A stretch of 45,092 nucleotides of DNA from Planctomycetota bacterium (GTDB taxonomy: Bacteria > Planctomycetota > Planctomycetia > Pirellulales > Pirellulaceae), in contig JAJRWU010000149.1 of assembly GCA_024276655.1 (NCBI GenBank), forward strand, positions 1-45,092. Reading direction: 5' to 3'. The translations under genes were made by a program, and so were the position numbers. This document shows, piece by piece, positions 3,846 to 32,231 of this stretch (positions within the stretch are counted from its first letter, which is position 1; every line of letters starts with the position of its first letter). The notes beneath the pieces were generated by a model, which was not told the origin of the DNA, searched no databases, and worked only from the letters and a program-made list of their open reading frames with translations.

Positions 3846-5150
3846 ATGGAAAAGACCAAAGTTGCCGTCGTCGGCATGGGCGTCGTGGGCTCTGGCGTGG
3901 CGCGATTGTTGCTCGATCAGGGAGATCGCACCGCCCGACACGCCGGCCGCACATTGTGGCTGGAACGGGTGGTGGTTCGCGATGTCGAACGAGCGCGTGA
4001 ATTGGAGCTGCCCGCCGGCGTTCTCTCCGACGATCTTTCGCTGATCATCGACGATCCTGAAATCAAACTGGTCGCGCAGTTGATCGGCGGACTGGAGCCA
4101 GCCCGCACGATCATGTTGCAGTTGCTCGAAAGCGGCAAGGATATTGTCACGGCGAACAAGGCGTTGCTGGCCGAACACGGCGGGGAGTTGTTCGATCGGG
4201 CGCGGGAGTTGGGCCGCTCGATCGCCTTTGAAGCGGCGGTGGCGGGCGGCATTCCGATCATCACCAGCATCGGGCAATGTCTGTCGGCCAACCAGATCAA
4301 TTTGCTGCAAGGAATTCTCAACGGCACCAGCAATTTTATTGTCACGGAAATGGAGGAGCACGGCGCCGACTACGCCGCCACCGTGGCCCAAGCACAAAAA
4401 CTCGGTTACGCCGAGGCCGACCCCACAATGGATGTCGATGGCTCCGACGTCGCGCAGAAACTCGCCATCTTGGCGCACCTGGCGTTCGGCGCCCGCGTGC
4501 ATTGGCAAGATATTCCCCGCCAGGGAATCGACCGACTCAGCCCGACCGATATCCAATACGCCTCCCAGTTGGGTTACCGCATTAAACTGATTGCCGTCGC
4601 GGAGCGAACCGACCAGCGTTTGGAATTGCACGTTTCGCCCACGCTGGTTCGCATGGGGCGGCCCTTGGCGGAGGTGCGCGGCGCGTACAATGCGGTGAGT
4701 GTGGTGGGCGACGCCGTCGGCCGTACTTTTTTTCACGGCCTGGGGGCTGGGCAAATGCCGACCGCCTCGGCGGTGGTGGCCGATATGATCGATACCGCCG
4801 TGGGCCGCACGCAAATTACTTTTCGCACGCTGGAGCTATGGTCGCGGCGGGAATCTGGCGTGGGGTTGCTGCAACATCGGGAGTCGAGCTCTCGGTTTTA
4901 CCTGCGTTTCAGCGTGAACGATCATCCCGGCGTGTTGGCGCAAATCGCGGGAATTTTAGGGGAAAACGCTATTTCGATCGCCTCGGTGATGCAGCACGAA
5001 TCGAGCGAAAACGGCGGCGACCACCAAATTCCCTTGATCATCATGACGCACTCAGCGTCGGAAGGCGCCGCCCAAGACGCGCTGGCCGAAATCGACCAAC
5101 TCGATTCGGTGCAAGCCGGCAGCATTCGCATGCGCGTGCTCGATCGTTAA
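3846..5150 (+). CDS. hom: Homoserine dehydrogenase
   Basis: The enzyme makes homoserine from aspartate semialdehyde with NAD(P)H, at the branch to threonine and methionine. The 434-residue protein has the Rossmann motif GMGVVG (10-15), NGTSN (159-163) and the catalytic-region motif EADPTMDVDGSD followed by AQKLAIL. A C-terminal ACT domain starts near residue 354 (VNDHPGVLAQIAGIL) and is expected to sense threonine. Length and domain order match the standard bacterial monofunctional enzyme. It is the first gene of a same-strand block with the putative homoserine kinase (5428) and aspartate kinase (6762). The 277-bp gap to the next gene contains a terminator-like hairpin, so the three may not form one transcript. 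Confidence 0.97.
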   Translation: MEKTKVAVVGMGVVGSGVARLLLDQGDRTARHAGRTLWLERVVVRDVERARELELPAGVLSDDLSLIIDDPEIKLVAQLIGGLEPARTIMLQLLESGKDIVTANKALLAEHGGELFDRARELGRSIAFEAAVAGGIPIITSIGQCLSANQINLLQGILNGTSNFIVTEMEEHGADYAATVAQAQKLGYAEADPTMDVDGSDVAQKLAILAHLAFGARVHWQDIPRQGIDRLSPTDIQYASQLGYRIKLIAVAERTDQRLELHVSPTLVRMGRPLAEVRGAYNAVSVVGDAVGRTFFHGLGAGQMPTASAVVADMIDTAVGRTQITFRTLELWSRRESGVGLLQHRESSSRFYLRFSVNDHPGVLAQIAGILGENAISIASVMQHESSENGGDHQIPLIIMTHSASEGAAQDALAEIDQLDSVQAGSIRMRVLDR

Positions 5151-5263
5151 GCCCCCCTCGACAAGCATCGCCCGACAGCCGACATTGGCGGTCATCCATG
5201 CGGTTCCCCAGCCGTAGTGTTGGGCGAAGTTTGGGAAGTCTTGGAAAACGACAGCCCGGTTTA

Positions 5264-5295
5264 GAAGCCCGGCTTTTTGAAAAAGCCGGGCTTCT
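5264..5295. terminator. Perfect AAGCCCGGC hairpin (repeat family E)
   Basis: Arms GAAGCCCGGCTTTTT and its complement pair perfectly around a tiny loop. The hairpin sits between hom and the next gene. It is symmetrical and lacks a long T-run after the stem, so it could terminate transcription from either direction or be only a repeat. Copies with the same core occur at 10494, 13645 and 32157. Confidence 0.6.
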
Positions 5296-5427
5296 CAGAC
5301 GCCAACTCGATATTTGATGGCGCTACGGTTTTCTGGTTTCAGGCCGCCCCAAGAGTATGTGAATTTGCACGACGGCTTTCGAGGCCGTTGCAACTGATGT
5401 TTTTCCTCGTTGAATTGCGGAGCACTG

Positions 5428-8543: not shown

Positions 8544-8565
8544 AGCGGTGGTTATTCCGTGATTT

Positions 8566-8837
8566 TAGGCCAGCGGCCGATGACAATTTGCCGAATACAA
8601 GCACGAAGCGCAAGCGAGTGCATCAGCAAACGGTCATTCCCGCTCAGGCGGGAACCCCAAAAAAACTCACAGACTCCCGCTGCGTGCGGGTAAGCACCGC
8701 GCGATAAATAACGGTCGCATATGTGTAGCCATCGTCGCCAGACGGTGGGTGAGCGGTGAACCATCCCACGCTCTGGCGAGCATGGCTACGACACTAATTT
8801 TCCGCTCGATGCTAAGTTATTTTCCGCCGCTCGCCGT
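8566..8837 (+). repeat. MITE-like element B, copy 1, interrupted by element C
   Basis: Element B begins TAGGCCAGCGGCCGATGA at 8566 and carries the shared core with ACAAGCACGAAGCGCAAGCG and ACTCCCGCTGCGTGCGGGTAAG. It is then interrupted at 8695-8812, and its right end TTATTTTCCGCCGCTCGCC resumes after 8816. Other copies lie at 10316, 23437, 24766 and 30032. The outer ends are inverted repeats of the form GGCGAGCGGCAGA. TA flanks both sides here, as expected for insertion at a TA dinucleotide. It fills most of the space between lysC and the next gene. Confidence 0.8.
8695..8812 (+). mobile_element. MITE-like element C, copy 1, nested inside element B
   Basis: This 118-bp element is flanked by direct TAAG repeats (8691-8694 and 8813-8816), which look like a target-site duplication. 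The ends are imperfect inverted repeats: GCACCGCGCGATAAATA on the left, counting the last G of TAAG, and GCATCGAGCGGAAAATTA on the reverse strand at the right. The interior is a palindrome in which GTAGCCATCGTCGCCAGA pairs with TCTGGCGAGCATGGCTAC. A copy of identical length lies at 12257-12374. It has no coding capacity, so it would need a transposase supplied elsewhere. Confidence 0.8.
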
Positions 8838-9022: not shown

Positions 9023-10318
9023 ATGGCTGAATCGACACGACGAAACTTTCTTCAATCTGCCGGTCTGGCCAGTGTTGCCGCGGCTGCGGCGGTGAAAACA
9101 GCCCAAGCGGCCAACAGCGTCATACGATTAGGCGCGATAGGTTGCGGCGGCCGCGCCCGTTCCCTGGTGAAGGAATTGGCTTCGGTCGACGGCGTGGATT
9201 TGGTCGCGGTGTGCGATCCCGACGCCGCCCGCGCCGCGCAGATAGCGGCCAGTTTCGGCGACCGTCCTCAGATCAAAACCGACCTGCGCGCCCTGCTCGC
9301 TATGAAGGAGCTCGACGCCGTCGTGATCGCCACGCCCGACCATTGGCACGCGCCGGCTTCGCTGTTGGCGTTGGCCGCCGGCAAGCATGTGTACGTGGAA
9401 AAGCCGTGTGCCCATAACCTGCGCGAGGGGCGGTTGTTGGTCGAGGCGGCGCATCGCAGCGGCCTCAAGGTGCAGCACGGCACGCAAAGCCGCTCCAGCG
9501 AGTTGGTCGCCCAGGGAATGCGGCTGTTGCGCGAAGGCGTGATCGGCGATGTGCTGGCGGCCAAGGCCTGGAACGTGCAGCGTCGGGGCGAAATCGGCCA
9601 TGCGAAACCGAGCCAGCCGCCAGCCGGATTCGACTACGATATGTGGGTCGGCCCGGCGCCGAAGCCGCCGTTCCAGAGTAATCGCCATCACTACACTTGG
9701 CATTGGTGGTACGATTTCGGCACCGGCGACATGGGCAACGACGGCGTGCATGAACTCGATATCGCGCGGTGGGGCTTGGATGTGAACCAACACCCGTCGC
9801 GCATCGCGGCGACCGGCGGCAAACTCAAATTCAACGACGACCAACAATTCCCCGACACCCAATATGTATCGTTCGATTACCCCGGCGATGGGCGGCGGGG
9901 AACACATCGGCAACTCATTTTCGAGCAACGGCTGTGGTCGCGTTATGGCATGGAAGGCGTCGACAACGGCAACGCTTTCTACGGAACCGAAGGCTGGATG
10001 CTGCTCGCCAAACGGGGCGTGCTCAAAGTGTTCGATGAACGCAATCGGCCCCGTGAAATAAAGCTGCAACCGGTTTCGTTGCCCAGCCATGCGGAAAACT
10101 TTATCGACGCCATTGCCGGCAACGCGAAACTCACCGCCGAGATTGAAGTGGGGCACCTTTCGGCGGCGCTTTGTCATTTGGGCAATATCGCGACGCGCGT
10201 CGGCCGCACCTTGGAATTCGATCCTCTTAAAGAACAAATTCTGCACGATGATGAAGCGAACGCGCTCCTACGCAGGACCTACCGAGAGGGCCACTTCGCC
10301 ACGCCGAGCGGAGTTTAG
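9023..10318 (+). CDS. Tat-exported Gfo/Idh/MocA family oxidoreductase
   Basis: The 431-residue protein begins MAESTRRNFLQSAG, a twin-arginine leader (Arg6-Arg7) followed by an alanine-rich h-region, so it is expected outside the cytoplasm. The NAD(P)-binding region follows (IRLGAIGCGGRA, about 34-45), then the family motif VEKP (about 125-128), in which the Lys is catalytic. The second half has HWWYDFGTGDMGNDGVHELD, typical of the secreted planctomycete members. Such enzymes act on sugars or sugar derivatives; the substrate is unknown. ATG 9023 follows GAAAGG (9009-9014) and opens the leader. The stop TAG coincides with the left edge of repeat B copy 2, so the last residues may derive from an insertion-truncated end. 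Confidence 0.93.
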   Translation: MAESTRRNFLQSAGLASVAAAAAVKTAQAANSVIRLGAIGCGGRARSLVKELASVDGVDLVAVCDPDAARAAQIAASFGDRPQIKTDLRALLAMKELDAVVIATPDHWHAPASLLALAAGKHVYVEKPCAHNLREGRLLVEAAHRSGLKVQHGTQSRSSELVAQGMRLLREGVIGDVLAAKAWNVQRRGEIGHAKPSQPPAGFDYDMWVGPAPKPPFQSNRHHYTWHWWYDFGTGDMGNDGVHELDIARWGLDVNQHPSRIAATGGKLKFNDDQQFPDTQYVSFDYPGDGRRGTHRQLIFEQRLWSRYGMEGVDNGNAFYGTEGWMLLAKRGVLKVFDERNRPREIKLQPVSLPSHAENFIDAIAGNAKLTAEIEVGHLSAALCHLGNIATRVGRTLEFDPLKEQILHDDEANALLRRTYREGHFATPSGV

Positions 10319-10464
10319 TCGAGTGGCAGATGAAAATTCACCTAACACAAGCACGAAGCGCAAGCGAGTGAATCAGCAAACGGTCATTCCCGCGTGGGCG
10401 GGAACCCAAAAAAAATCATGGACTCCCGCTGCGTGCGGCTAAGTTGTTTTCCACCGCTCGCCTT
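10316..10464 (+). repeat. MITE-like element B, copy 2
   Basis: The element runs from TAGTCGAGTGGCAGATGA to CCACCGCTCGCCTT, with the same core as the copies at 8566, 23437, 24766 and 30032. Its first three bases are the stop codon of the upstream oxidoreductase. The right flank reads TT rather than TA, so the target duplication is not intact. Confidence 0.8.
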
Positions 10465-10493
10465 GGAAGCCACACGCAATAACTCGCCGAATT

Positions 10494-10527
10494 AAAAGCC
10501 CGGCATTTTGGAAATGCCGGGCTTTTT
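10494..10527. terminator. Hairpin with T-run (repeat family E)
   Basis: AAAAGCCCGGCATTT and AAATGCCGGGCTTTTT form a near-perfect GC-rich stem followed by T residues, resembling an intrinsic terminator. It lies between the two Gfo/Idh/MocA genes. The same sequence, with the same GAATTAAAAGCC entry, recurs at 32157 inside another inverted-repeat element, so it is also a dispersed repeat. Confidence 0.65.
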
Positions 10528-10591
10528 CGAGCAACCGCTGTGGCGTATTCTAAAACGCTTTGCAATCACGGCAACCATTGAGGGAGTATTC

Positions 10592-13616: not shown

Positions 13617-13644
13617 TGCACAGGGGGAAACCACCTCCCATTTC

Positions 13645-13677
13645 AGAAGCCCGGCTTTTTCAAAAAGCCGGGCTTCT
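13645..13677. terminator. Bidirectional hairpin between convergent genes (repeat family E)
   Basis: AGAAGCCCGGCTTTTT and its complement form a perfect stem around a single unpaired C. It lies in the 97-bp gap between the converging esterase and DUF1501 genes, exactly where a shared terminator would be expected. It has the same core as the hairpin at 5264. Confidence 0.7.
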
Positions 13678-13713
13678 CGACCGCTGTTTCGGGAACGAAT
13701 GGCTCCGCGTTTT

Positions 13714-23201: not shown

Positions 23202-23673
23202 GTGTTGTCATTTTAATGGAACGGCACTTTAGAAAAAAACGCCGCGCAAAGCCAGATCAACTATCCAAATGCGCATCGGAATAAAATCACCAACTTTGGC
23301 GTCGTTCATTTTGAAGACGGGTCATTGATCGCGCCCCCCCTCTGAAGAGCTGTTTTTTTGGAATTCTTGGCCCAATGGCGGCTTTGTAAGGCACTTCACA
23401 GTAGGTTGCGCCCGCAGTCGGCAAGATATTGCATTGAGGTGAGCGGCAGATGAAATTTTACTAATACAAGCACGAAGCGCAAGCGAGTGAATCAGCAAAC
23501 GGTCGTTCCCGCGTAGGCGGGAACCAAAAAAACTCACCGACTCCCGCTGCGTGCGGGTAAGTTATTTCCGCCACTCGCCTAATGTCGGGCGCCTACTTTG
23601 GCGGGCTGTCGACAAAGCGACGTGGGGCAGCGCCGCCTCGCACATCCAAACTGCTTGGGAAGGAACAATAGTC
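23202..23673. other. Gene-free stretch containing element B copy 3
   Basis: No gene is supported. Element B occupies about 23437-23581. The rest, including a C-rich run near 23333, shows nothing recognisable. The final 90 bases contain the Shine-Dalgarno-like GGGAAGGA (23657-23664) for the DUF3179 gene, and presumably its promoter. Confidence 0.5.
23437..23581 (+). repeat. MITE-like element B, copy 3
   Basis: The copy runs from AGGTGAGCGGCAGATGAAAT to CCGCCACTCGCCTAA and contains the shared core ACAAGCACGAAGCGCAAGCG, then TCCCGCGTAGGCGGGAACC. The left end lacks a flanking TA; the right end is followed by TA. It lies upstream of the DUF3179 gene. Confidence 0.8.
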
Positions 23674-24768
23674 GTGGTGGAAACTACCTCGAAACCTGGC
23701 GTCGTTAAACGCATGGTACGTTTGGTCGTGCTGGCGGTATTGAGCGCGGCGGTGGCGGTTCCGGCGGCGATGGCCATTTCCAAGTGGCAAGACTGGAAGT
23801 TCCGCGCCAGCGAATCGGCGCTGAGTTTGGCGATGACCGAACACGCAATCAGCCTTGAAAACCCGCCCAGCCCCGAGTCGTTTTTTCCGATGGAAGTTGT
23901 TTCACGTCCGCCATCGGTTTCGGATTTTCCCATTTTGTCGGCCGAGGAGGCGAAAGGAAAAATCGAAGACAACGAACTGGTGCTGGGCGTGACGATCAAC
24001 GGCGAGTCGCGTGCTTACCCATTGAACGTGCTGACCGGCCCGGATCGCGAAGTTTTCAACGATCAGTTGGGCGGCCGCCGGATCGCCGCCACTTGGTGAC
24101 ATCTCTGCTACAATGGCATCGTGTATGCCACCGAAGTTGACGGCAAAAACCTCACGCTGGGCGTTTCCGGGATGCTCTGGGAGGGCAGCCTCGTGATGGT
24201 CGACCAAGAGACCGGAAGCCTGTGGAGCCATTTATTGGGCGCCTGCATGAAAGGCCCGCTGGTGGGGAAAGAACTCGAGGTGATCCCCTCGTTGATGACC
24301 GACTGGAAATCTTGGAAAACACGAAACGCCAAGGGCTCATTGGCGTGGCTCCCGCGCACCGCCATCCGATATCGGTCGGGTCCTTCCAGACTGGATACGG
24401 GGCTGGGTCTGGGCTTGGTCGAAGAGGGTGAGTCGCGGATCTGGGACTTCGGATTTCTGGCTGCACATCCGGTGATCAACGACAAACTGGCGGGACGACC
24501 GTTGGTTGTCTTTTTTGATTTGTCGGCTGAAGCGGCGTCGATCTTTTCGAGGCTTGTTGATGACCAGGTTTTAAGCTTCACGTTCCGTGAAAACCAGTGC
24601 CTCGACAACGAAACCGAAAGCAGTTGGGACCTCCAAACCGGAGCGGCGCTTTCGGGGCCCATGCAAGGCCGACAACTCACGCGTTTGCCCGGCATCGTTT
24701 CCGACGGCGCCGCCTGGGAAACCTTCCATCCCAAAACCACTGTGTGGCTGCCGGACGAAAAGCCATAA
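23674..24768 (+). CDS. DUF3179 protein with in-frame TGA: candidate selenoprotein
   Basis: Read through TGA 24097-24099, the frame encodes 364 residues. GTG 23674 is chosen because GGGAAGGA lies 10 bases upstream; an N-terminal membrane segment (VRLVVLAVLSAAVAVPAAMA) follows. The DUF3179 pattern is clear: NGESRAYPLNVL, then FNDQLGGRRIAATW, the TGA (codon 142), HLCYNGIVYATEVDGKNLTL, VSGMLWEGSLVM and ETGSLWSHLLG. In this family a Cys is expected at codon 142, forming CxxC with Cys145, so decoding as selenocysteine would give UxxC. The part after the TGA remains in frame and well conserved to its natural stop at 24766. Alternatives are a single nonsense mutation or base error. The product would be exported or membrane-attached; its reaction is unknown. 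Its stop coincides with element B copy 4. Confidence 0.72.
24097..24130 (+). promoter_or_regulatory. TGA plus SECIS-like hairpin
   Basis: After the TGA (24097-24099) come 14 bases and then a perfect 6-bp stem, TGGCAT (24114-24119) with ATGCCA (24125-24130), around the 5-base loop CGTGT. The loop begins 21 bases after the TGA and has G as its second base. Bacterial SECIS elements lie immediately downstream of the Sec codon, with a small loop about 16-37 bases away and a G among its first bases, so the geometry fits. The stem is short and chance occurrence is possible. Confidence 0.5.
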
Positions 24769-24915
24769 GGCGAGCGGCGGAAAATAACTTACCCACACGC
24801 AGCGGGAGTCAGTGAGTTTTTTGGGCCCCGCCTGCGCCGGAATGACGGTTTTCTGATTCACTCGCTTGCGCTTCGTGCTTGTATTTAGGTAAATTCTCAT
24901 CCGCCGCTCGCCTTA
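24766..24915 (-). repeat. MITE-like element B, copy 4
   Basis: This inverted copy runs from TAAGGCGAGCGGCGGAAA to CCGCCGCTCGCCTTA. The ends are inverted repeats flanked by TA on both sides. Its first three bases are the stop codon of the DUF3179 gene. Confidence 0.82.
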
Positions 24916-29985: not shown

Positions 29986-30031
29986 TAACACCATTGCACG
30001 GAATAGATCTTGGACAGGTGCTAAGAACCTC

Positions 30032-30182
30032 TAAGGCGAGCGGCAGAAAATTACTTACCCGCACGCAGCGGGAGTCCGTGAGTTTTTTTGGGTTCCCGCC
30101 TACGCGGGAATGACCGTTTGCTGATTCACTCGCTTGCGCTTCGTGCTTGTATTAGGTAAATTTTCATCTGCCGCTCGCCTAA
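30032..30182 (-). repeat. MITE-like element B, copy 5
   Basis: This inverted copy runs from TAAGGCGAGCGGCAGAAAAT to CTGCCGCTCGCCTAA. The right edge supplies the TAG stop (read on the minus strand at 30181-30179) of the glycine-tailed protein gene. Confidence 0.82.
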
Positions 30183-32026
30183 AAGAATCCGCCTCCACCG
30201 CCGCCGCTGCCGAATCCACCACCTCCTCCACCACCGCCACCACCGCCGAATCCACCGCCTCCTCCGAATGCGGCGCCGTTAAAGCCCGGAACTTCCAACT
30301 TCTTAAACAGAGCACGAATTTTCTTATGGACCGCCGGCGTTTGGCGAATCAGGAGCATGTCGGACACGGCATGAATGTATGTGCCTTCAACCCCCCAACT
30401 CTCGGGCGCCACAAGCTGCATCACGACGTCAATGAGTTCGACCGGTTCGTAACTGGCGGGAGTGACTAAAACGTGCTCGGTTACTCTTCCGCCACCGCCG
30501 AATCCGCCGCCGCCGAACTGCGCCTGGATGGGCGAACGCACGGGCGGCGCGGCTTGCCCCTGCTCCTTGTTGGTGGGTTTCTTGGCGGCGGCCTTGGAAG
30601 CGGTCTCGCTCTGAAGCCGCGAGTAACGAACACGATACGCCACCAGCTTCATGGCGCGGGGATCGAACTTCTGGGCCGTGTTTTCCACGGGGCGGTTCTG
30701 GAGTTTGGCGCGCACCTGGGCCAGCAAATCGAGAATCTGTTCATGCACTTCGCCTGTTTGCGAGACGATGAGTACGCCATCCAGCCCGTCAATAGCGCCG
30801 GGACCGCCGACTTCATCCCAGCAGTCCGGCGAGAGAGTTGCGGTAACCATTTCAATCAGCGAGTCGTAATCGTGCGAGGTGGCATCAAGAACATCAGCGG
30901 TGCGCCGGGCGTCAGCCACCAGATCAAGCACGGGGTAACATCGCGTGGTGAGTTGGGTTTCACTTTCCTCGGGCGTGGTGATGACGAGGCTTTCATCGCG
31001 CACGACGAACGTCAATTCGAGCTCTTGTAAGAGAAGCGTGAGGGCCGATTTCAACGGCAACTGGCTGGCCCGGAAGATAACGGGAGTGTTGACGCCGAGG
31101 CCTAAATCTTCGAGGGCATTGGTGTCGATTGACACATTCACTTCCGCCATTTCCCCCACATGCTGAACGACTTCATTGAGCGGAGTGTCGACAAAGTCGA
31201 AATCGGCGGGAAGCTCCAAGGCGGCGTAAATTCGGTCTTCGTTCGCCCGATTGCCAACAACCAGCCTGACCTCAAAAACAGCCGGCGCTGCGAATCCGCT
31301 GGCGTGGGCGATGCCGCGGGCGGCGCGAAACGCTTTCAGCAAACTCGCCACCTGTTCCTGAACATAGCCGGTTTGCGAAATCGTGAGAAGTCCTCGGAAA
31401 TATTGTATCGCTCCCGGTCCGCCGACTTCATCCCAGGAGTCGGGTGCGATGATGGTTGTGATTGCATCGATCAGGGAATCGGCGGAAATAGCCGGTTCTT
31501 CATCGCCGACTTCCTCCGAGACAAGGTCGGAAACGTCGTACGTTTTTAATCCCAGTTGGGTTTCGGCCTCTTCGGGCGTGGTGATCATCAATACGCCGTG
31601 CCTGACCACGGTTGTCAACTCCAGGGGCCGCAGCAAACGCCGCAGCGCCGAAGCCAGGGAAATATCTTGGAACTGGTCGGTGATCGGGGGGTCGAGGGCG
31701 ACGCCAAGATCGTCGAGCGCTCGGTGATCGATCAAAATCAGAATATCGTGCGCCTTGGCCAGGAAATTCATTGCTTCGGCCAACGGTGTTTCAACAAAAT
31801 CAACGTCCGTTTTCGCTTGCATCTTTTCCAGAATGCGGGCCTCTTGCCGGGTCGGCGGCGAATGCTTCGCTTTCTCTTCGGCGCGGAGCGGCGAGGGTTG
31901 AAGCATTGCTGACGCCAGCAGCGTCGCCCAGAGGCAGATTGCCAGCGGAAGCAAGCCAAGCCTCGAAAACAGGTTCGACGCCAGCGGTTTTATTGTGGAC
32001 ACGTACGGTTTTGTTTTGATCGACAC
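30179..32026 (-). CDS. Exported protein with repeated secretin-N-like units and glycine-rich tail
   Basis: The 615-residue protein contains two long homologous units and a shorter third. Each full unit has FVxTPLxE, an LxDLGxxxxxP segment, a VRxxxLxITTPEE motif, then PDxWDEVGGPGAI and a SQTGxVxEQ end. The third keeps only APESWGVEGTYIHAVSDMLL. This alternation resembles STN/secretin-N-type units seen in planctomycete proteins. The C-terminus is nearly pure Gly with Phe. I chose GTG 32026 because AGAAAGG lies 7 bases upstream and a signal peptide follows (GLLPLAICLWATLLASAML). An ATG at 32077 is possible but has no visible ribosome site. The protein is probably extracytoplasmic. Its stop lies in element B copy 5. 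Confidence 0.82.
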   Translation of the reverse strand: MSIKTKPYVSTIKPLASNLFSRLGLLPLAICLWATLLASAMLQPSPLRAEEKAKHSPPTRQEARILEKMQAKTDVDFVETPLAEAMNFLAKAHDILILIDHRALDDLGVALDPPITDQFQDISLASALRRLLRPLELTTVVRHGVLMITTPEEAETQLGLKTYDVSDLVSEEVGDEEPAISADSLIDAITTIIAPDSWDEVGGPGAIQYFRGLLTISQTGYVQEQVASLLKAFRAARGIAHASGFAAPAVFEVRLVVGNRANEDRIYAALELPADFDFVDTPLNEVVQHVGEMAEVNVSIDTNALEDLGLGVNTPVIFRASQLPLKSALTLLLQELELTFVVRDESLVITTPEESETQLTTRCYPVLDLVADARRTADVLDATSHDYDSLIEMVTATLSPDCWDEVGGPGAIDGLDGVLIVSQTGEVHEQILDLLAQVRAKLQNRPVENTAQKFDPRAMKLVAYRVRYSRLQSETASKAAAKKPTNKEQGQAAPPVRSPIQAQFGGGGFGGGGRVTEHVLVTPASYEPVELIDVVMQLVAPESWGVEGTYIHAVSDMLLIRQTPAVHKKIRALFKKLEVPGFNGAAFGGGGGFGGGGGGGGGGGFGSGGGGGGFF

Positions 32027-32123: not shown

Positions 32124-32231
32124 TTAGGCAAGCGGCAGATGAAATCTTACCGAATTAAAAGCCCGGCATTTTCAAAATGCCGGGCTTTTCTGAACAGCAA
32201 TCGGTAACTTATTTCAAGACGATTCCTAAGG
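32124..32231. repeat. Hybrid inverted-repeat element with family E hairpin core
   Basis: The outer ends TTAGGCAAGCGGCAGATGAA and, on the other strand, TTAGGAATCGTCTTGAAATA are related to the ends of element B. Inside, at 32157-32189, is the hairpin AAAAGCCCGGCATTTT paired with AAAATGCCGGGCTTTT. So one unit joins element B-like ends to the hairpin found alone at 10494. It lies between two leftward genes and may also act as a terminator for the DUF1501 transcript. Confidence 0.55.

Follow-up and report, generated by a model that had tools for sequence, protein, structure and literature searches.

We have analyzed a window of 45,092 nucleotides (the whole stretch of DNA considered here), which is contig C69 of a planctomycete draft genome of 5.96 Mb in 328 contigs, 96% complete. 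The window contains a gene of the DUF3179 family (Table 1) that starts with GTG, has the sequence AAGGAA (23660-23665) 8 nt upstream and ends in a TAA at 24766-24768. Translation of 23674-24765 gave 141 codons, a single TGA and then 222 codons up to the TAA, with the TGA occupying the first Cys position of a CxxC. The original prediction described AATW, TGA and HLCYNGIVYA in one unbroken frame, and the translation reads exactly so; of its 223 codons said to follow the TGA the last is the stop, so the open frame stands and the count becomes 222. Both sides of the TGA matched the Pfam DUF3179 model (PF11376) in one frame, with 180.6 bits over a cut-off of 27, and two stretches of the product were placed in the family. 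Among the 1094 TGA codons found in the six frames of the window, only this one had at least 141 open codons before it and at least 222 after it (limits chosen after the gene had been seen), and therefore the open frame around it is not due to chance.

The closest locus in the named records, as given by a search that may omit very near genomes, was that of the Planctomycetaceae MAG SZUA-33 (L098), 96% identical in the DUF3179 protein. This relative keeps the TGA, has a protein of the same length as that of the window and shows no other stop, i.e., there are none of the scattered stops or frameshifts that had been proposed as a sign of decay in close relatives. The dN and dS values between both genes were 0.013 and 0.091 upstream of the TGA and 0.016 and 0.154 downstream, giving ratios well below 1 on both sides.

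Table 1. Features of the window, with coordinates, strand and basis of assignment.
Feature	Position	Strand	Basis
DUF3179 selenoprotein gene (predicted), 364 residues with Sec142	23674..24768	+	frame translation and Pfam match
In-frame TGA, read as Sec142 (U142-H-L-C145)	24097..24099	+	same site TGA in three DUF3179 genes of the genome
Bacterial SECIS-like hairpin	24115..24129	+	comparative pairing and covariation
Long N-terminal helix with hydrophobic segment, residues 8-56	23695..23841	+	model helix; hydrophobic stretch by eye
First repeat, residues 98-222, Rieske/ISP-like beta domain with U142 and C145	23965..24339	+	model and structure comparison
Second repeat, within residues 237-364, without U/C pair	24382..24765	+	29% identical to first repeat
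Inverted copies of a dispersed repeat flanking the gene	23463-23567, 24782-24885		
Further copies of the flanking repeat	8561-8665, 10311-10467, 30030-30184		
Hairpin-like repeat copies	2845-2891, 5256-5302, 10487-10533, 13638-13684, 32150-32196		

Three DUF3179 genes were found in the genome, in the window and in contigs C282 and C265, and in each of them a single TGA occupies the Sec position of UxxC (ATWUHLCYNG, ATWUHLCHNG and VSFUAVCNSG, respectively). NCBIfam has no model that matches any of the three proteins, and automated pipelines would therefore be likely to end them at the TGA. Over the 396 genomes of the order, 77 of which contain DUF3179, the match rows bearing stops had TGA alone in 34 cases and TAG alone, TAA alone or TGA plus TAG in one case each. 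When the rows were read singly, 32 of the 34 TGAs were located at the Cys column, the exceptions being G176 and a truncated copy in G144. A selA gene above cut-off was detected in 25 of the 26 genomes with TGA at the column, compared with 25 of the 51 remaining DUF3179 genomes (Fisher P 2.7e-5), these 51 including G144, G170 and G176, where the TGA rows are off the Cys column or not resolved; if G144 is counted among the TGA genomes the figure becomes 26 of 27. Taking all the remaining genomes as reference, the comparison was 25 of 26 against 89 of 370 (P 7.6e-14). The sole exception was G026, a genome with the TGA form that is 92% complete, in which no selA was found.

The recurrence of TGA at this column in other genomes, which the original prediction had proposed to look for, was also evident in relatives from named genomes: 53 of 57 readable loci, spanning Planctomycetota, Verrucomicrobiota and Poribacteria, had TGA there and four had Cys (L108, L113, L134 and L145), even though the loci were collected with two search patterns of which one required Cys at the column. 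One row was kept per locus, three of the 60 loci lacked the anchor (L128, L151 and L157), and several of the 57 share a genome or repeat genes retrieved by motif (for instance, L108 is L081 and L145 is L089). The motif rows covered 55 of 73 fetched DUF3179 loci, 32 with TGA and 23 with Cys. Since the motif required Cys or TGA, and the 18 loci in which it was absent were left out (L029, L036, L043, L044, L045, L047, L055, L080, L085-L088 and L091-L096), the statement that Cys occupies this site is biased by selection. A two-state tree of 87 domains (62 TGA and 25 Cys), built from few columns and with several long branches, required at least seven changes, three of them forced by well-supported branches. 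An exact pattern of 33 bases matched in three of 392 genomes of the phylum, twice in this genome and once each in G459 and G541, and DUF3179 relatives of less than 60% identity appeared in 27 records of a plasmid collection. Two of the loci have peculiarities of their own. The truncated copy of G144 (L080, G144:C14:122600-124000) has stray stops and its TGA off the Cys column, is probably a pseudogene, and lies about 5 kb from an intact Cys copy (L081). L109 has tandem DUF3179 copies at 4304 and 5492, both with TWU-HLC.

The search for selA, selB, selC and selD suggested for this genome found all four. The selC gene scored 66.4 bits and was called by ARAGORN as tRNA-SeC with anticodon tca; selB (339.9 bits) and selA (552.1 bits) are on one contig, and selD reached 271.4 bits, all of them above cut-off. 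The latter (L024, G000:C177:29081-30001) lies inside a frame of 870 codons with an oxidoreductase-like N-terminal part, which we take to resemble FAD/NAD oxidoreductases.

Located 15 nt after the TGA there is a potential hairpin, with stem GGCAT/ATGCC (24115-24119 with 24125-24129) and loop CGTGT (24120-24124). In two overlapping sets of TGA genes all five pairs were formed in 27 of 28 and 52 of 53 members, L073 and L102 respectively having only four, and in the corresponding Cys genes (also overlapping sets) in 0 of 23 and 0 of 4, the best of these reaching three pairs in the same register. Bases 2-3 of the main type of loop were GU in all 28 and all 53 TGA genes read. The innermost pair, U-A, is invariant, and the outer ones vary by subfamily yet still pair (GGCAU/AUGCC, CUGAU/AUCAG, CUCGU/ACGAG, UCCGU/ACGGA). 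In the first set 139 of 140 pair cells were paired and 29 had changed on both sides; none of 500 shuffles was as high and slid controls were at most 55% paired. Two of the five measures used did not exceed the shuffles, the number of pairs changed on both sides being reached in 216 of 500 and that of further pair types in 114 of 500. Another 37 sequences outside this count, close relatives among them, had 184 of 185 cells paired and 17 changed on both sides; no shuffle out of 500 was as high and slid controls were at most 57.3% paired. Here the pairs changed on both sides were reached by 9 of 500 shuffles, and the one measure that did not exceed them was the further pair types (500 of 500). 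All these figures count sequences and not independent events. What appears to be the clearest sign of the hairpin is a silent covariation between codon 149 and that of Tyr-151 (33:0:0:20): all 33 genes with an Ile codon at 149 (first base A) have TAT for Tyr-151, and all 20 with a Val codon (first base G) have TAC.

The C265 type has its own version, with a stem of five pairs out of five and a loop of 7 nt in four of four loci, in which a sixth pair, C-G, closes a GGUCU loop. Folding L003 alone yields this stem; the four loci (L003, L082, L083 and L084, three distinct rows, too few for testing) are excluded from the first-set count. Folding of the window RNA alone did not favor this structure (z 0.40 over 49 nt and -0.85 over 81 nt), and Rfam gave only a chance-level match on 23900-24500, with no family at the hairpin. 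Judged by its comparative pairing, it is a putative compact bacterial SECIS. The SECIS of the Escherichia coli fdhF type is a hairpin within the coding region shortly after the UGA. That of DUF3179 shares this location and a G close to where the apical loop begins, but its stem has only 5 bp and its loop 5 nt, and no conserved lower stem was seen. One of the Cys forms, L113 (TWCHLC), retains the CGTGT loop and three of the five stem pairs, and is perhaps a recent change from Sec to Cys with the SECIS decaying.

The order holds several Sec subfamilies of DUF3179, and the residues around the site differ among them. Columns 142 and 145 are both invariant in a 50-row alignment of the window subfamily, collected with two search patterns of which one required the two residues. 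Elsewhere the Cys at +3 is absent: SYU-SSE in L076, L077 and L079, GWU-PLV in L075 and TWU-ELG in L073. The two residues of the U142/C145 redox pair originally predicted are thus kept in the window subfamily, but such a pair is no rule for the family, several of whose Sec members lack the Cys at +3. Since such members keep the hairpin (fully paired in L076, L077 and L079, four of five pairs in L073), it is Sec, rather than the U/C pair, that they suggest to be the constant part. L075 has a very long tree branch, and 90 codons after the first TGA it has another, which may serve as its stop. The Cys-type members (T-Y-C-P-L-C-D-S) belong to the same family and have a CxxC at the same site; they differ in the Cys codon itself, in the hairpin (0 of 23 fully paired) and in an invariant His located 17 residues before the CxxC (19 rows), with which the invariant Arg125 of the window subfamily is aligned by eye. 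The other Sec subfamilies keep a His at that position.

The full-length model (pLDDT 94.9) has a helix at residues 8-56 followed by two beta domains. U142 is located at the end of a strand and C145 in the following turn. The helix is a probable membrane anchor, from which we infer export; the C282 paralogue and a relative have an N-terminal RRxFL, which we take to be a Tat-like motif. The first domain modeled alone reached pLDDT 94.5. In its comparison by VIA-align the best 50 of 206 matches (Z of at least 2) had Z from 9.2 to 7.3, values under 8 being of perhaps little meaning, with rmsd 2.5-3.6 over 82-106 residues, and at least 46 chains had Z of 8 or more. We take these best 50 to be Rieske-fold entries. 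Covering matches of the second repeat were at Z about 8. The fold predicted for each repeat thus resembles that of Rieske/ISP domains, including NirD, a cluster-free domain of this fold. However, the CxH...CxxH cluster ligands are absent from the translation, comparison of the DUF3179 profile with Rieske domains by hhalign gave no match, and Pfam at a loose limit gave no Rieske hit. Foldseek gave the first domain a best E of 0.16, not significant, with probabilities of at least 0.9 for several Rieske rows. A sequence search of solved structures returned one meaningless match (E 0.82), and among viral structures there was a single hit, an uncharacterised protein of Indivirus (E 1.2e-6).

It could be argued that the UGA is indeed read as Sec but that the U/C site, instead of serving redox catalysis, holds a metal or an iron-sulfur centre, the protein having descended from a Rieske-type domain. 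The structural matches of the first repeat agree with it, and so does the His of the Cys-type members, whose distance to the CxxC is that found between the His of box 1 and the Cys of box 2 in the Rieske proteins of these genomes (H43-C60). Against it, the window subfamily has Arg in place of this His and the profiles detect no Rieske relationship. Moreover, in the alignment with 1fqt_A, where 94 pairs join model 12-117 to chain 1-97, the Sec corresponds to a residue within 22-37 of the chain and precedes the ligands of the cluster, which we take to be C43, H45, C63 and H66. We consider such a metal site unlikely. A substitution of the Rieske box 2 C-x-x-H by the U-x-x-C was set aside, as the aligned ranges place the Sec before the ligands.

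A pseudogene, in which a stop has arisen from a Cys codon and the sequence beyond it decays, is very improbable. Where Sec cannot be decoded the TGA would terminate translation, and the copy in G144 illustrates that truncated genes with a stray TGA off the column do exist; but here the same codon recurs throughout three phyla and in three paralogues, the dN/dS is low on both sides, the frame has no further stop and the sel machinery is present. If TGA stood for one of the standard amino acids (Trp or Gly) in this lineage, the frame would be equally open. However, four of the 23 other open reading frames of the window end in TGA (their ends compared without relatives), making a general recoding in this lineage unlikely; the rows free of TGA that were read have Cys at the column (one motif asked for Cys or TGA), and selA-D and the tRNA-Sec are all found, which leaves this explanation even less credible than the former. 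A sequencing error of a single base, conceivable in one contig of a 328-contig draft, has a negligible chance when the same TGA and hairpin appear in other assemblies and in the paralogues.

The TGA very probably encodes selenocysteine, as originally predicted; the sel genes, the recurrence of the codon, the intact relative and the covarying hairpin all support it. We hold with high confidence the reading as a whole, a DUF3179 selenoprotein served by the cell's own SelA, SelB, SelC and SelD and by the hairpin, with a predicted anchored product of two domains and a putative Sec142-Cys145 redox pair. The UGA would be decoded by these four components under the direction of the 5-bp hairpin with its GU-containing loop, downstream within the coding region. 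The product would be membrane-anchored and probably exported, with two homologous beta domains, and in the first of them Sec142 and Cys145 could form a selenenylsulfide or selenol-thiol pair reducing a small or protein substrate of the envelope. The attacking residue would probably be Sec142, given that family members without the Cys at 145 still have Sec or Cys at 142, and that Arg125 replaces the His of the Cys-type and other Sec-type members. The most likely role, read from the two residues only, would be that of an exported, anchored selenol/thiol oxidoreductase of the envelope. The neighborhood offers no operon clue, since the largest clusters of similar neighbors reach only six and five of the 57 loci (up to three open reading frames of at least 90 aa per side, crude calling); by eye, the largest clusters were sulfatase-like and cytochrome-type genes.

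A more speculative proposal, to which we give somewhat less than an even chance, is that DUF3179 proteins are tandem cluster-free domains of Rieske fold whose redox centre is now a Sec (or Cys) borne by a hairpin distant from the former cluster site, i.e., a new class of selenoenzyme. Such a class would span Planctomycetota, Verrucomicrobiota and Poribacteria and keep Sec where the partner Cys has been lost. To our knowledge the Rieske fold is not known for selenoproteins.

As to whether such a selenoprotein had been described, which the original prediction left open, DUF3179 is tabulated as a predicted "UxxC/T" selenoprotein in the parts consulted of PMC9312934 and PMC13188914, the former crediting the work of Zhang and Gladyshev (2007) on the symbiont of Olavius algarvensis. 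In those parts neither gives a SECIS, a number of paralogues or a structure for the family, and the terms planctomycet- and verrucomicrob- are absent from both main texts. The reviewed proteins share with ours the Pfam family and the Sec in UxxC, whereas the members found here also include UxxE, UxxG and UxxV. Selenoproteins and genes for Sec have also been reported in a study on Planctomycetes from Porphyra, whose candidates may include DUF3179. Searching the literature on DUF3179 and on selenoproteins of Planctomycetes and Verrucomicrobia, partly accessible and with few subscription journals covered, we found no description of a SECIS or a fold. The window gene is a strong addition to a selenoprotein family that is known but little studied and uncharacterised. 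The features that appear to be new are the presence of three paralogues, a defined SECIS, the Sec sites without a second Cys and the confident two-repeat model resembling the Rieske fold. The short covarying hairpin provides a rule to find such genes, the three copies and several Sec subfamilies suggest that selenium-dependent DUF3179 chemistry is common in these bacteria, and what the protein does, how it folds and what the partner Cys contributes can now be put to the test.

The gene is flanked by inverted copies of a dispersed repeat, complementary to each other over 69 nt (90%) and 44 nt (93%), and several further copies are found along the window. Besides, a hairpin-like repeat of the form AAGCCCGGC...GCCGGGCTT appears in five copies, 64-89% like the reference copy.
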